From Capsulimonadaceae bacterium (GTDB lineage: Bacteria > Armatimonadota > Armatimonadia > Armatimonadales > Capsulimonadaceae), in contig JARLGU010000012.1 of NCBI GenBank assembly GCA_031292625.1, forward strand, positions 186,001 through 250,000: 64,000 bases of DNA, in the 5' to 3' direction. A program made the translations under genes and the position numbers. Positions 3,868 through 10,678 of this stretch are shown here, in pieces. The notes beneath the pieces were generated by a model. It searched no databases and was not told the origin of the DNA. It saw nothing but the letters and a program-made list of their open reading frames with translations. Each line of letters begins with the position of its first letter. The first letter of the stretch is position 1.

Positions 3868-5232
3868 ATGTTCGATCTTCAGCCAATGGGCGCGCAGCGC
3901 GCGAGCGATGGCGTTCCCGTGCCATCCGTCGAGCAGCTTGCTTTTCAGGACCTTGAACTTGGCCTATTCATCCACTATGGGATGACCACGTACACCGGCG
4001 AAAGCGCACCGAACGGTCAAGAACCGGTCAGTACTTTTGCGCCGGAGAATGTGGACTGCGACGATTGGGTGACGTTGGCGCAGGAGATGGGCGCGCGCTT
4101 CGCGGTCTTTACGGCGCGTCACGAAGAGGGCTTCTGCCTGTGGCCGACATCGACCACGGCTTACTCGATCGCGCACTCCGCTTATCGCGGCGGCAAGGCC
4201 GATCTCGTGCGCGAGTTCGTCGATGCGTGCCGTTGCAAGGGAATTACCCCGTGCCTGTACCATCCGTCGTATATGGACGGACACCACCTTTTCGCGCCCG
4301 AAGATGACCGGCGATGGCACAAAGCATGGTTTGAATCGACCAACCTCCGCCTTGCGTCAAATAAGAGATTCGAGGAGTTTCTTGAGATGCAACGGATGCA
4401 GATCCACGAGCTCCTGACCAACTACGGCCCTATCGCGTATCTCTGGCTGGATCATATCGGCGAAACACAGGGCATTCTCAACCCGGAGCAAATCGATCGC
4501 TTCTGGGCGGAAATCGTCGCCGAGGCGCGACGTTGCCAGCCGTCGTGCCTGCTCCTGAAGGCCGACATTTACCTTTCCCGCGACCGCGAATGCGGCGCCG
4601 GGGTTCATGCGGGCCGAGCGGCCGGCGCGGTCTGGCATACTTGCGAGCGCGAGGACACCGGCGAGGGGCAATCGGACCCGCTGGCGAACCCCGAACATGG
4701 GACCGAGTACGTCGCCTGGGAATCGAATACGATCTTCAGCGGCGACTGGTTCTGGAACGGCGAGTTCGTAAAGCGCCTCGATACGATGATCGAGCACTAT
4801 TACGCCACGGTCGCTCGTGGGTCCACGTTCCTGCCAAACTTTGCGCCCAATCCGGCAGGACGGATGCCGGAATGCGCTCATCGGCACGCCAAACTTTTGG
4901 GCGACTGGATCGCCGCGACATTTGGCTCGCCGCTCGCCATGTCGAACCCGCATGATGACGCGCTTGAACTCGGCGCGCCGGCAATCGTCGATCATATTGA
5001 GATCGCGGAAGACCTCTCGAACGGTCAGCGCATTATGGCGTACGAGGTCGAGGGGCGCTGGCGGGGCGAATGGAAGCCGATCGTGAATGGGACGAGCGTC
5101 GGCCATAAGAGGATCCTGCGCATCAAACCCGATTGGTTTAGCGCCGTGCGCATACGGGTCACGCGCGCGCTTGGAACCCCGCGCATAAAGCGGATCGCGG
5201 CGTACGGCGGCAAGTGGTCCGGAACGGAGTAG
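3868..5232 (+). CDS. Alpha-L-fucosidase-like GH29 glycoside hydrolase
   Basis: 454 residues with AGGAG before the ATG. GH29 features in order: LGLFIHYG near residue 31, ARHEEGFCLW near 90, and YLWLDHIG near 193, whose Asp aligns with the catalytic nucleophile of GH29 enzymes. A C-terminal segment (~375-454) resembles a small beta-sandwich. No signal peptide is seen, so it probably acts in the cytoplasm on imported fucosides or related deoxy-sugars. It sits 61 bp behind the GntR/LacI-type regulator and is probably controlled by it. The exact substrate is not proven by the motif set. Confidence 0.8.
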   Translation: MFDLQPMGAQRASDGVPVPSVEQLAFQDLELGLFIHYGMTTYTGESAPNGQEPVSTFAPENVDCDDWVTLAQEMGARFAVFTARHEEGFCLWPTSTTAYSIAHSAYRGGKADLVREFVDACRCKGITPCLYHPSYMDGHHLFAPEDDRRWHKAWFESTNLRLASNKRFEEFLEMQRMQIHELLTNYGPIAYLWLDHIGETQGILNPEQIDRFWAEIVAEARRCQPSCLLLKADIYLSRDRECGAGVHAGRAAGAVWHTCEREDTGEGQSDPLANPEHGTEYVAWESNTIFSGDWFWNGEFVKRLDTMIEHYYATVARGSTFLPNFAPNPAGRMPECAHRHAKLLGDWIAATFGSPLAMSNPHDDALELGAPAIVDHIEIAEDLSNGQRIMAYEVEGRWRGEWKPIVNGTSVGHKRILRIKPDWFSAVRIRVTRALGTPRIKRIAAYGGKWSGTE

Positions 5233-5357
5233 GGCCCGTCGCGGCGGACGCGGCGAAAGATACTCAAGGTTTTCGACGCGATCGTCCATTCTCTGGCCAT
5301 GCTGACCACGGGTACAATCGCCGCAGTACGCATCCCGCAAAAAGGACATCACTCCCG

Positions 5358-7334
5358 ATGACCCTCCGATCGATCTTCACCATTGCAAGCGTTGTTGCTC
5401 TCTGCGCCTGCGCATCCCTGGCCTCCGCTGCCCCTGTCTCGGTTGCGAGCCTGCTCTGTCAGGAGACGTCGCTGTCGACGCTCTCCACGGCCGCGGACTG
5501 GACGACGCGTTTGGATTCGTCCTACGATCGAACGGGCGGAAACGGAGATTTCAACAACTTCGTGAGCGCGGATGGCGACACTGCGACGCTGGCGGACCTG
5601 CAAGGACCGGGGGCCGTCGTGCGCATATGGTCCGCCAATCCGAAGTCCGGTCATATCAGGATCTATATCGACGATAATCCCGCGCCGGTCGTCGATATGC
5701 CGTTCGACCAGATGCTCGCAGGACGCACGGATCCGTTTCTTTCGCCGCTTACGCAGGTGACCATGGGCGGACATTGGACCTACCTGCCGATCTCGTACGC
5801 CAAGCGCTGCCGCATCACGGTGGAACGTCCGGATGCGCTCTACTACCACGTCACGTCCGTTCGCTTCCCTAACGACGCGGTCGTCCGATCGTTTGCGCTC
5901 CCGTTGGCGGATGACGACCGCGCGGCGCTTAACGGCGCAATCAAGGCGTGGACCGCGCCGTACGCCAACCTGCCTGTCGCGCCGGATGTGGTATCCGTTC
6001 GACCCGGAAGCAGGGCGAGCTTCCGGGAGGTAAAGGGGACGGGCAAAATCGATCAACTCATCGTCGCCGCGCCGGATACGCCGGATCTTGAGTTGCGCAG
6101 ACTGGTCATCAGGATAACGTTCGACCACCACCGAATTCCCGACATCGAAGCGCCCCTTGCCGACTTCTTTGGCAACGCTTACGGTCACAAGACGTTCGAC
6201 TCCCTTGCGCTCGCACAAACCCCGGCGGGCGAGATGATTTGCCGTCTCCCAATGCCGTTTGGCAAATCGGTTCAGATCAGCGTCGAAAACGGCAACGGGC
6301 GGCCGGTTACCGTTTCAGTCGCGACGCATTTCACGCCCGGCGGTTTCAAACGAGGAAGAGACCTTTATCTGCACGCCGACTTTCACCAGGATCTTACGAC
6401 GCGCGGTAAGCCGCATGTCTGGATGGCTACCAGCGGCCAGACGGGGCGTTTCGTCGGGGTTGTCCAGGCGATGGAGAGCCCGTACGGCATCGGGTATCTG
6501 GAAGGCGATGAGCAAATCCGCGTCGACGACGAACAATTCGCCGCCTGCAAGACGCCGGGAACCGTCATCGCGCCATGGAACGGAACGGGGACCGAAGATT
6601 ACTTCAACAGCGGCTGGTATTTTGCTGGAACTCTGCTTGCCGCGCCTTTGCATGGCTGCCTCAAGAAGGACGAAGCCGGACAGATCGATGCTTTTCGATT
6701 TCTTCTCCTCGACGCACCCGTTTTCCAACATTCGATCGACGCCCAAATTGAACACGGCGGCGAAAACGATTTTGCTCCTAAAGCTTACTATTCGTCGGTC
6801 GCGTTCTGGTACGGATCAGGCGAACGAACGCCGGTCGCGCCGATGCCGCCTGCATCGACGCTCGCGTTGCCTTTCAGCCCAGTGCCGCGTTTGACTCTGC
6901 AAGGACCTGGCGTCATTGAAGGCGAATCCCTGGTCAGACTTGCGAAGGCGACCGAAGGAAGCGTCTCCATGCAGACGATGGGAGGTTACGACGATTCCTG
7001 GAGCAGAGGGACGCAGCTCTTCTGGAAAAATGGCGTTGCGGAAGACACGCTCATCGTGCCGATCAACGTTGCCAATGCGGGTCGTTACGAGGTGATCGCT
7101 TATTTGACCAAGGCGGACGATTACGGAATGTTCACCTTCTCGCTGGCCGATCAACAGTTGGGGGGCGCGTTCGACGCCTACAACGATCGCGTCGTAAACT
7201 CCGGACCGATCTCACTCGGAACGGTCGCACTCCCGCCGGGGCCTTCGCCGTTCGTCGTCACAATTGCCGGAAAGAACCCGGCATCCCGCGCGACCTTCTT
7301 CGGGCTGGATGCAATCGTGCTCAAGCCGCTGTAA
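5358..7334 (+). CDS. Secreted DUF2961 / GH172-family glycoside hydrolase
   Basis: 658 residues from the ATG at 5358, preceded by AAAGGA and followed by a signal peptide ending CASLASAA. The core matches DUF2961 (GH172): GPGAVVRIWSANP near residue 83 and GTGTEDYFNSGWYF near 410, which holds the acidic residue conserved in this family. Residues ~520-658 look like a carbohydrate-binding jelly roll (GRYEVIAYLTKADDYG). GH172 members act on fructofuranosides, arabinofuranosides and related glycans. It follows the GH29 gene by 125 bp in the same direction, so joint use on one glycan is plausible. An upstream start at 5214 is open but lacks a ribosome site. Confidence 0.8.
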   Translation: MTLRSIFTIASVVALCACASLASAAPVSVASLLCQETSLSTLSTAADWTTRLDSSYDRTGGNGDFNNFVSADGDTATLADLQGPGAVVRIWSANPKSGHIRIYIDDNPAPVVDMPFDQMLAGRTDPFLSPLTQVTMGGHWTYLPISYAKRCRITVERPDALYYHVTSVRFPNDAVVRSFALPLADDDRAALNGAIKAWTAPYANLPVAPDVVSVRPGSRASFREVKGTGKIDQLIVAAPDTPDLELRRLVIRITFDHHRIPDIEAPLADFFGNAYGHKTFDSLALAQTPAGEMICRLPMPFGKSVQISVENGNGRPVTVSVATHFTPGGFKRGRDLYLHADFHQDLTTRGKPHVWMATSGQTGRFVGVVQAMESPYGIGYLEGDEQIRVDDEQFAACKTPGTVIAPWNGTGTEDYFNSGWYFAGTLLAAPLHGCLKKDEAGQIDAFRFLLLDAPVFQHSIDAQIEHGGENDFAPKAYYSSVAFWYGSGERTPVAPMPPASTLALPFSPVPRLTLQGPGVIEGESLVRLAKATEGSVSMQTMGGYDDSWSRGTQLFWKNGVAEDTLIVPINVANAGRYEVIAYLTKADDYGMFTFSLADQQLGGAFDAYNDRVVNSGPISLGTVALPPGPSPFVVTIAGKNPASRATFFGLDAIVLKPL

Positions 7335-7511: not shown

Positions 7512-8108
7512 CTACTGTCCGCCCATTCCTCCACCGCCCGCGCCGGTCGGGACGCGGATCGACATGCCGCCGGGGCCCTGAACGGAGGTCGTCGGAAGCC
7601 CGCCCGCGGGTGCGGGCGGGGCAGCAGGCGGCGCTGCCGCAGGCGCCGTTTGGTTCGCTGGAGCGGCAGTGCCCTGGTCGCCTCCAGTGCTGTCTGCCTG
7701 GTGGTGATGTCGGTGCCCGCCTTCTCCGTCGCCGGCAGCTACGCCGCCAGGCGCGCCCGGACGCATATTATCGGGCGCGGTGAGAATGCCGGTGTTTGGA
7801 TCGTACTGGTAGACGCAGCCGGGAGTATTGTACATTTCGGCAACAACGCCGTATTTGCTGAGCGCGTCGAGACTTGGAGGGTTCTTGCCGTCGTAGTCGC
7901 TCTTGTATTGCATGATCGCGGCGCGGATCTGCTCGGTGTAGCTGATGCACATTGTGGCATTGGCGCGATCCATCGCTCCGCCGTAAACGCCCTTGTGCAT
8001 ACCGCCCCACATTGCGGCGGTGATCGTGATAATAATGGCAATCGCGATGATCAGGCCGATCAGCGCCTGGCCTCGGATCGCACGCGACATCTTGCTTGGG
8101 GTAACCAT
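7512..8108 (-). CDS. Glycine/proline-rich prepilin-like protein
   Basis: 198 residues from the ATG at 8108, which has AAGGAG nine bases upstream. The N-terminus (RGQALIGLIIAIAIIITITA) resembles a type IV pilin/pseudopilin cleavage site followed by a hydrophobic helix. The usual Glu at +5 of the mature protein is absent. Residues ~30-100 look globular (ISYTEQIRAAIMQYKSDYDG). The last ~95 residues are low complexity, rich in Gly, Pro, Ala and His, ending GAGGGGMGGQ. It starts one base after the accB stop and must be co-transcribed with it. Role unknown; a surface or secretion pseudopilin is the best guess. Confidence 0.65.
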   Translation of the reverse strand: MVTPSKMSRAIRGQALIGLIIAIAIIITITAAMWGGMHKGVYGGAMDRANATMCISYTEQIRAAIMQYKSDYDGKNPPSLDALSKYGVVAEMYNTPGCVYQYDPNTGILTAPDNMRPGAPGGVAAGDGEGGHRHHHQADSTGGDQGTAAPANQTAPAAAPPAAPPAPAGGLPTTSVQGPGGMSIRVPTGAGGGGMGGQ

Positions 8109-8109
8109 C

Positions 8110-8604
8110 TCAGGCTCCTTCCGACAAAAAGGCCTCGTCCTCATCGCCCAATGCGGCTGGGGATTCGGCGGGCGCAACATTATAGAGCACCTGGCCGTAT
8201 TCCACTGGCTGACCTTCTTCGATCAATACCTCGACAACGGTTCCGGATGCGGTGGAAACGACCTCGTTCATCAGTTTGATCGCTTCGATAAAGCCAACGC
8301 GTTGTCCTGCGCTTACGGTCGCGCCTACTGTCAGGCGGGGAGTCGCTTCGTGAAAGACGCCCACCATGGTGGACGCAATTGCGGAAAGCGCGGGCGCGTA
8401 TTCCAAGAGCGTCTGCTCGGTATCGATGCTTGCAACGGCGTCGGTATCGTCAAGCGGCGTGACGGCGCGGCGCGGCGCAACCGCCGTGGCAGAGCGACGC
8501 TTGATCGTTATTTCAGACCCATCCTTCGCGGTCACGGCAAGCTCGGTAACCTCCGGAGCGTCGGCCAACAGGTCGATAAGGTTCTGGATATCGTTGATTG
8601 TCAT
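8110..8604 (-). CDS. accB: Biotin carboxyl carrier protein of acetyl-CoA carboxylase
   Basis: 164 residues, the normal AccB size. The N-terminal ~30 residues (NDIQNLIDLLADAPEVTELA) match the AccB start region. A mobile Ala/Pro-poor linker follows, and a biotinyl domain occupies ~80-150 with EAIKLMNEV around the biotinylated Lys (canonical EAMKLMNEI; Met is Ile here). It carries CO2-biotin between biotin carboxylase and carboxyltransferase in fatty acid synthesis. No accC lies next to it. A promoter is visible at 8636-8664. The downstream partner is a pilin-like gene, not another carboxylase subunit, which is unusual. Confidence 0.88.
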   Translation of the reverse strand: MTINDIQNLIDLLADAPEVTELAVTAKDGSEITIKRRSATAVAPRRAVTPLDDTDAVASIDTEQTLLEYAPALSAIASTMVGVFHEATPRLTVGATVSAGQRVGFIEAIKLMNEVVSTASGTVVEVLIEEGQPVEYGQVLYNVAPAESPAALGDEDEAFLSEGA

Positions 8605-8763: not shown

Positions 8764-9489
8764 TTAAGCGGCTGGGTATTCTTGGCACAGGTAGAAGCGA
8801 CGCGGCACGTCCTCTTCGATCTTTGGAAAGCGCTTGGCGGGGTCCACAAAACAGTTGTCGTTCCAATCATCGCATACGCTCGATACCTCGCCTGATGCCG
8901 TAATCCCGCCGCCCTCTTCGCCCCAAAACTGGTGGATCGTGCGCGGGGGAATTTCCAGGCTTTCGCCTGGCGACAGGCGTATCCGCTCGCGAGGCTGCAC
9001 GGTTCGCGTCATGCCGTTCACCTGGACGCGCAGGGGCTGCTCGATCGCGATCCCCGCATCGTTCGTGGGCGTGAGTTCGAGGATGATTGCGCCGCTTTTG
9101 CCGCGATGGATAATATCCTCACGTTTGGATCGGTGAAAATGCGCCGGCGCGCGTTGCCCTTCGGGGTCGAGCAGAAACTTTTCGGCGTAGCTCTTGGGGT
9201 ACCGGGGATCGTCCATGCGGCCGTTACGCAACGTGAACAGCGTTCGCCCAATCCGCGCGAAGTCGCCGCTCCCGAAGTCGGTGACATCCCAACCCAAGAG
9301 GCAATGCCTAATCTCATCCGCCTCACTCCCCATTTGGCGCCATTGCTCGGGCGTCAAATAGGCATAGGGCGGCAGGTGAAGCCCATTCGCCGCAAAGACG
9401 TCGATAGCCTGCTCGATGCTAGCGTTGATTTGCGAGCGCTTCAAGATCGATAGACGAGTTTCGTTGATTGGTATTGGAGCCACATTCAT
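8764..9489 (-). CDS. D-lyxose ketol-isomerase family cupin enzyme
   Basis: 241 residues from the ATG at 9489, with AGGA upstream. The sequence matches the D-lyxose isomerase family (YdaE-like cupins). PAHFHRSKREDIIHRGKSG near residue 118 supplies two His and a Glu of the divalent-metal site, and IPPRTIHQFWGEEGGG near 180 supplies another His. The family interconverts D-lyxose and D-xylulose and may also use mannose/fructose. Cytoplasmic. It stands alone, 217 bp downstream of the FCD-AraC regulator gene in the same direction; that regulator may control it. An extended reading frame to 9594 lacks a ribosome site. Confidence 0.82.
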   Translation of the reverse strand: MNVAPIPINETRLSILKRSQINASIEQAIDVFAANGLHLPPYAYLTPEQWRQMGSEADEIRHCLLGWDVTDFGSGDFARIGRTLFTLRNGRMDDPRYPKSYAEKFLLDPEGQRAPAHFHRSKREDIIHRGKSGAIILELTPTNDAGIAIEQPLRVQVNGMTRTVQPRERIRLSPGESLEIPPRTIHQFWGEEGGGITASGEVSSVCDDWNDNCFVDPAKRFPKIEEDVPRRFYLCQEYPAA

Positions 9490-9604: not shown

Positions 9605-9705
9605 ATCCTGACGCGCACCTGGATAGCATGATCGGCCATACGTATCATACTGCCTGGTCTCGTCGACGTATACGCGGTTTCTGCCTTTCCACTATGCGAA
9701 TTCGA

Positions 9706-10530
9706 TTATCGTCCGGTGGCGGCTCGATTCTTGCGCCACTCCGACGGGGTGCAGCCCATCAGGCGGCGGAAGTGCAGCGTGAAGCGGGACATGTCCGCGT
9801 AGCCGACCCGATCCGCGACTACCTGGACGGTCGAGTCGACATCCTGCAGGAGCGTTGCGGCGCGGCGCAGGCGAAGGCCCTGAACGAAGGTGCTGAAGGA
9901 CTCGTTGCGCCGCTGGCGGAACAGGCGCGCCAAATGGCTGGGACTGACAAACGCAACATCACGAGCGACCTCGGTGAGGGTGAGGCGGCGATGCAGATTG
10001 AGGACGACATAGGCGGCGACCCGTTCGACTGGATCCGCTTCGCCGGTCGCTTCGGCCGGCTGCTCGGTTAAGATTTGCCAGAGCGCGTCGAGGTCAACCT
10101 GCGCCGCGCGCTGCGCTGCGACGGCATCGCCGGATGCGATGGTTTTGAGTTGCGTATCGTGGGACTGCGCCAGCATCTTTAGGTCCCGAAAGAGCGCGTG
10201 GTGCGACCATCCCGCGAAGATGCGAAAGCGTTCTTCGAGGACGAGCCAGATCTCGTCGAGCCCGGGCGTCCCCGCCATGGCCGCAATCGTCCTGTGGAAC
10301 TGCATGTCAGCCTCAAGAAACGCGCTGTAGTCGCCCTTCGCGCCCGCGTCGCGCATGGCATCCCATCGCAGCCGGAGCGGCGCCGGGTCGAGCCCCGCGG
10401 CAACGTGCAGGGCGGCGTGACGCGCCGCGAAGCTAGCGATCTGCGCCCGGAGCGCATAGATCTGATGAAGCTCAGCCAGCCCTGCCGGATCCCATCGCGA
10501 CGGTCCCAACTTCTGATCGATGCTCATCAT
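9706..10530 (-). CDS. FCD sensor domain fused to AraC-type DNA-binding domain
   Basis: 274 residues. Residues ~15-150 read as an FCD (FadR C-terminal) all-helical ligand domain: ADMQFH supplies Asp75 and His79, SHDTQL supplies His124, and the last expected metal His is replaced by Asp146. Residues ~165-268 are an AraC helix-turn-helix pair (LTEVARDVAFVSPSHLARLF and CTPSEW). FCD normally follows a GntR winged helix, so here the DNA-binding half has been swapped. Likely a metal/organic-acid or sugar-acid sensor. It lies upstream of the lyxose isomerase gene on the same strand. GGAAAG precedes the chosen ATG at 10530; an adjacent ATG at 10527 is equally possible. Confidence 0.75.
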   Translation of the reverse strand: MMSIDQKLGPSRWDPAGLAELHQIYALRAQIASFAARHAALHVAAGLDPAPLRLRWDAMRDAGAKGDYSAFLEADMQFHRTIAAMAGTPGLDEIWLVLEERFRIFAGWSHHALFRDLKMLAQSHDTQLKTIASGDAVAAQRAAQVDLDALWQILTEQPAEATGEADPVERVAAYVVLNLHRRLTLTEVARDVAFVSPSHLARLFRQRRNESFSTFVQGLRLRRAATLLQDVDSTVQVVADRVGYADMSRFTLHFRRLMGCTPSEWRKNRAATGR

Positions 10531-10678
10531 TGCGCGTTCTTTCCGGTGCTTCTCTTGGCGGCTTGTCGCATTCTGCCGTATTATACAACCTGAGTTCGTA
10601 CAGTCCACACATATAATAACACGCCCAGCACATCCCCGTGCCGGGCGTGTATCCTGTGTTCCGCGATCCGCTCTGCAA

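Follow-up and report, generated by a model that had tools for sequence, protein, structure and literature searches.

The regulator gene and its sensor domain

The window, as we call the whole 64,000-nucleotide stretch of Capsulimonadaceae DNA that was analysed, carries on its minus strand a gene (9706–10530, with its ATG at 10530) encoding a 274-residue protein in which an FCD sensor domain (residues 23–145; 10096–10464, minus strand) is followed by an AraC-type DNA-binding domain with two helix-turn-helix units (residues about 167–270; 9721–10032, minus strand). The gene is defined by its open reading frame and translation, by Pfam matches and by full-length homologues in two phyla. Ahead of it lie a putative sigma-70-like promoter, TGGACT-16-TATAAT, which agrees with the consensus at 10 of 12 positions in a scan (10580–10607, minus strand), and a terminator-like hairpin with a 14-pair stem and a T-rich tail (10619–10650, minus strand) that separates the gene from the upstream open reading frame. 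Directly after the stop codon comes a candidate operator half-site, CGAATTCGCATAG (9692–9704, minus strand), of a motif shared with several relatives of the regulator. The gene that follows the regulator in the same orientation belongs to the D-lyxose isomerase family (8764–9489, minus strand; PF07385, 2.1e-76; PDB entry 3kmh, 9e-52), and its product scores below the NCBIfam equivalog cut-off.

Beyond the isomerase is a biotin-carrier (AccB-like) gene (8110–8604, minus strand), which overlaps a prepilin-like open reading frame (7512–8180, minus strand) by about 70 bases; the true start codon of the latter probably lies further in. An alpha-L-fucosidase-like gene and then a DUF2961 gene (3868–7334, plus strand) converge on the regulator cluster and are possible glycan-use genes.

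The N-terminal half matches the Pfam FCD family (PF07729) at 4.5e-17 and 63.1 bits, against a curated cut-off of 24.3, and the C-terminal half matches both HTH_18 (2.2e-24, 86 bits) and HTH_AraC (4e-14, 53 bits), as well as the sequences of AraC-family DNA-binding domains in the PDB. A GntR domain hidden upstream can be ruled out, since the frame translated from stop to stop (335 residues) contains no winged helix. Lacking the N-terminal GntR winged helix, the protein falls outside the GntR family (FadR/VanR subfamily), and its sensor may work like those of the GntR-family FCD proteins. The best reading is that it is an AraC-type regulator in which an FCD domain replaces the usual cupin-like arm as the sensor.

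An AlphaFold2 model, built from two sequences only, has block pLDDT values mostly of 70–96 over residues 21–100 and 121–150, falling to about 50 in between, at residues 101–120. Over the AraC half the model is poor (pLDDT about 50), so that the assignment of that half depends on sequence matches. Foldseek pairs the modelled FCD half with the FCD domains of PdhR, DgoR, DhdR and NanR at a probability of 1.00, with E-values of only 0.009–0.03; the PdhR domain superimposes with a target-normalised TM score of 0.88 and an rmsd of 1.6 Å. Searches of the PDB with single FCD domains by phmmer gave matches too weak for use. The original prediction of an FCD fold in front and a two-HTH AraC domain behind is thus upheld, the former by the Pfam match and the predicted fold together, the latter by the two HTH families.

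The closest guide to the pocket is E. coli NanR, in which Zn2+ is held by Asp172, His176, His222 and His244 and Arg128 contacts the carboxylate of Neu5Ac (PMC8012715). We aligned NanR with ten FCD-AraC proteins and 75 GntR-linked FCD domains. Window residues Asp75, His79, His124 and Asp146 fall exactly on the four NanR metal ligands, in that order, and Arg28 falls on Arg128. The arginine, the aspartate and the first two histidines occur without exception across the ten FCD-AraC proteins. At the fourth metal position, just past the end of the Pfam match, nine of the ten have histidine and the window copy has aspartate, as do two of the 75 GntR-linked FCD domains, drawn from the window's phylum; Asp146 is therefore a property of this copy and not of the family. 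Both the retention of the first three metal-site residues and the replacement of the fourth had been read from the sequence beforehand, and the NanR alignment confirms them.

Distribution and origin of the FCD-AraC family

FCD sensors are, to our knowledge, known almost entirely from GntR repressors. How unusual, then, is their attachment to an AraC domain? A PF07729 profile search of 291 genomes of Armatimonadota, the phylum of the window, gave 82 matches in 46 genomes. When these were classed by their flanking domains, with a search for the AraC half and scoring of the best candidates in each genome, at least two proved to be FCD-AraC proteins: that of the window and a relative in genome G221, 36% identical to it over the full length. 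A profile made from these two proteins recovered full-length FCD-AraC proteins in nine of 392 genomes of a second phylum, which DUF1559-type prepilins and PVC-type cytochrome and HEAT proteins suggest to be the Planctomycetota. Pfam finds both domains in all ten family members scanned, the window copy included.

Searches elsewhere added nothing to the family. Plasmid tblastn searches matched the AraC half only, among the records listed; viral contigs held no FCD-AraC relatives; in genome contigs the only hits were a Spirochaete GntR-FCD protein, which is not a fusion, and the relative already known from G221; and a thin sampling of other phyla gave no further full-length example. A candidate in G523 was excluded because its similarity is confined to the AraC half. 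No report of an FCD-AraC fusion was found in the literature searched. The expectation that the architecture is rare and has not already been characterised agrees with these counts and with that search.

Two copies in the second phylum deserve separate mention. Genome G769 has a second, divergent FCD-AraC gene (L127, 8265–9095) in a different neighbourhood, with the start of its FCD domain shortened. In G484 the gene (L126, 8933–9733) is interrupted by an in-frame TGA at a codon that specifies tryptophan in the closely related copy from G422, and is either a pseudogene or affected by a sequencing error.

In a maximum-likelihood tree of 85 FCD domains, a single branch with support of 100/99 divides the ten FCD-AraC domains from the 75 that are GntR-linked, and the window and G221 domains are sisters (98/84). 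This fits a family of single origin, although the tree makes one fusion event the most economical interpretation without proving it, since the GntR-FCD comparison set was drawn from one phylum and the domain is short.

Gene neighbourhoods and a candidate operator

The regulators have genes for sugar-acid and sugar enzymes beside them. In the second phylum, a gene of one and the same BNR_2 (sialidase-fold) family lies no more than about 5 kb from the main FCD-AraC copy in eight of the nine genomes, and in six of those eight a lyase of the DHDPS/NAL family is also nearby; the regulator is usually divergent from this gene set or beside it. A different BNR_2 gene adjoins the regulator in G580, three genomes have a BASS-type transporter near it, and in G788 a D-lyxose isomerase family gene lies within 4 kb, as one does in the window. 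The lyases keep the Schiff-base lysine and the tyrosine of the DHDPS/NAL family and score closer to DapA than to NanA.

No DHDPS-type lyase or BNR gene stands beside the window regulator, and the homologues in its genome are on other contigs. One of these, on contig C42 (L133, 9301–10437), is a 34% identical homologue of the second-phylum BNR neighbour, near a LacI-type regulator. On contig C31 (L134, 6240–9447 within 72000–85450) a conventional GntR-FCD gene lies beside a BNR/sialidase-like open reading frame and a DHDPS/NAL-family lyase, which shows that the same genome has a NanR-like locus with similar kinds of genes under the classical GntR-FCD architecture.

Inspection of the upstream regions brought out a shared motif. 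Either CGAATTCACATAG or CGAATTCACCTAG precedes seven FCD-AraC genes, representing five lineages when near-copies are counted once; the motif occurs in the intergenic region next to the regulator in seven of nine relatives, all seven in the second phylum, where it stands a short way ahead of the start codon of the regulator. No clear copy is found in G221, G788 or G580. In the relatives a weaker copy 22 bp upstream completes a 22-bp direct repeat, in which 38 of 60 positions match over the five lineages, compared with a maximum of 32 in shuffled sequences; this score was reached in none of 2000 shuffles at any offset, a test that is somewhat generous as the upstream regions share ancestry. The remaining perfect matches that we inspected in these genomes lack the 22-bp repeat and are for the most part within coding frames.

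The window site CGAATTCGCATAG, between the regulator and the isomerase, is a one-mismatch copy of CGAATTCACATAG. Only three sites in the whole 5.77 Mb genome come within one mismatch of CGAATTCACATAG, this one included. At that density the intergenic DNA flanking the gene should hold about 2e-4 such sites, an estimate whose significance is partly post hoc because the motif came to light through inspection of upstream regions. The window site is also the only perfect match in the genome to the degenerate form CGAATTCRCMTAG, a uniqueness likewise partly post hoc as the R in that form was set after the window had been seen. The window shows no obvious second half-site (5 of 12 positions at −22). 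The first recognition helix of the AraC domain reads SPSHLARLFR in the window, SPGHLARLFR in G801, G821 and G422, and SLNQLERRFK in G221, which lacks a clear motif; these differences fit the distribution of the motif.

What would the window site control? The isomerase start is about 200 bp downstream of it, and 42 bases past the site a TATGAT (9644–9649, minus strand) may be the −10 element of an activator-dependent isomerase promoter, for which there is no clear −35. The isomerase, of D-lyxose or mannose type, is the likely target of the regulator. The motif might instead be unconnected with FCD-AraC proteins, arising by chance or belonging to a core promoter, with the isomerase no target at all. 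A lone half-site, a long gap to the isomerase and a motif noticed only after inspection would all be accommodated by this explanation, but the scarcity of near-matches in the genome argues against chance, and the window site, being downstream of the regulator, is not the regulator's own promoter. We regard this explanation as rather doubtful.

Proposed sensing and regulation by FCD-AraC proteins

The reading that we think best accounts for these observations, and hold to be fairly probable, is that the FCD-AraC proteins are metal-assisted sugar-acid sensors that regulate adjacent sugar genes locally. In the FCD pocket a divalent metal is probably coordinated by Asp75, His79, His124 and Asp146 (histidine in the relatives), and a small carboxylate ligand would be bound by Arg28 and the metal together. 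The ligand is most likely a sugar acid or a 2-keto-3-deoxy or nonulosonic acid, as suggested by the NanR-like pocket, the sialidase-fold neighbours, the pyruvate-type lyase and the aldose isomerase. Its binding would alter the FCD dimer and the way in which the pair of AraC domains sits on their predicted targets, half-sites of the CGAATTC[A/G]CATAG type. In the second phylum the 22-bp direct repeat would then govern the regulator gene together with the divergent BNR/lyase operon, and in the window the candidate site would control the downstream isomerase. As a speculation, KDN, which is cleaved to mannose and pyruvate, would join lyase and isomerase in one route.

Would such a regulator activate or repress? 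Most FCD/GntR proteins are repressors, and AraC-type domains usually activate when they occupy direct repeats about two helical turns apart. If it followed the FCD/GntR pattern, the protein would be a repressor on the direct repeat, released by its ligand as NanR is by Neu5Ac; NanR-like FCD regulators are indeed repressors induced by their ligands (PMC8012715), and the second-phylum site, so close to the regulator's start codon, suits autorepression. The spacing of the repeat points the other way, towards activation, as does the −10 beyond the window site, which is near consensus and has no clear −35 with it; we consider repression unlikely. It is more improbable still that the protein is a degenerate or constitutive AraC regulator that uses its FCD domain for dimerisation only, the window copy having lost metal and ligand sensing through Asp146: the fourth ligand does differ from that of all nine relatives and FCD domains do dimerise (the title of the PdhR FCD entry, 5tpm, calls it a dimerisation domain), but Arg28, Asp75, His79 and His124 are retained at only about 36% identity to relatives, and aspartate is itself a common metal ligand, present at this position in the two GntR-FCD domains noted above.

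A sugar-acid sensor of this kind would combine features of several known systems. With NanR, the GntR-family sialic acid sensor, the FCD-AraC proteins share the FCD fold, the one-to-one correspondence of pocket residues (with the window Asp for the last His) and, in the second phylum, a lyase and a sialidase-fold gene next door. The DNA-binding half, however, is a C-terminal AraC domain where NanR has an N-terminal GntR winged helix, and the lyases stand nearer to DapA than to NanA, unlike the NanR setting; NanR binds Neu5Ac and controls nan genes, and no nan operon is present in the window. PdhR, DgoR and DhdR, which with their FCD domains give the best structural matches to the N-terminal half, likewise have a GntR winged helix, and respond to pyruvate, galactonate and 2-hydroxyglutarate respectively. 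The AraC/XylS regulators AraC, RhaS/RhaR and MelR share the C-terminal double-HTH domain, an operator (here a candidate one) built as a direct repeat with about two helical turns between half-sites, and sugar genes nearby; a passage in PMC5882156 concerns this family, to judge by its examples. These proteins have a cupin-type arm, in contrast to the all-alpha FCD sensor described here. E. coli XylR offers a parallel in principle, a borrowed sensor on an AraC domain, although its sensor is of LacI type, like a periplasmic binding protein.

Taken further, one ancient fusion of a NanR-like, metal-dependent acid sensor to an AraC domain may have given rise to regulators of nonulosonic or 2-keto-3-deoxy sugar acids in two environmental phyla, with the window copy keeping the operator and shifting to the isomerase step, from mannose or lyxose to the ketose. 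We offer this scenario tentatively and think it on the whole questionable.

Finally, this natural and apparently single-origin swap, accompanied by conserved neighbours and a conserved candidate operator, offers a direct way to test how a single ligand domain can drive two DNA-binding architectures that are unrelated to each other. The FCD-AraC proteins are a natural model for regulators that respond to sugar acids, and point towards sugar-acid pathways, so far poorly known, in Armatimonadota and Planctomycetota-like bacteria.
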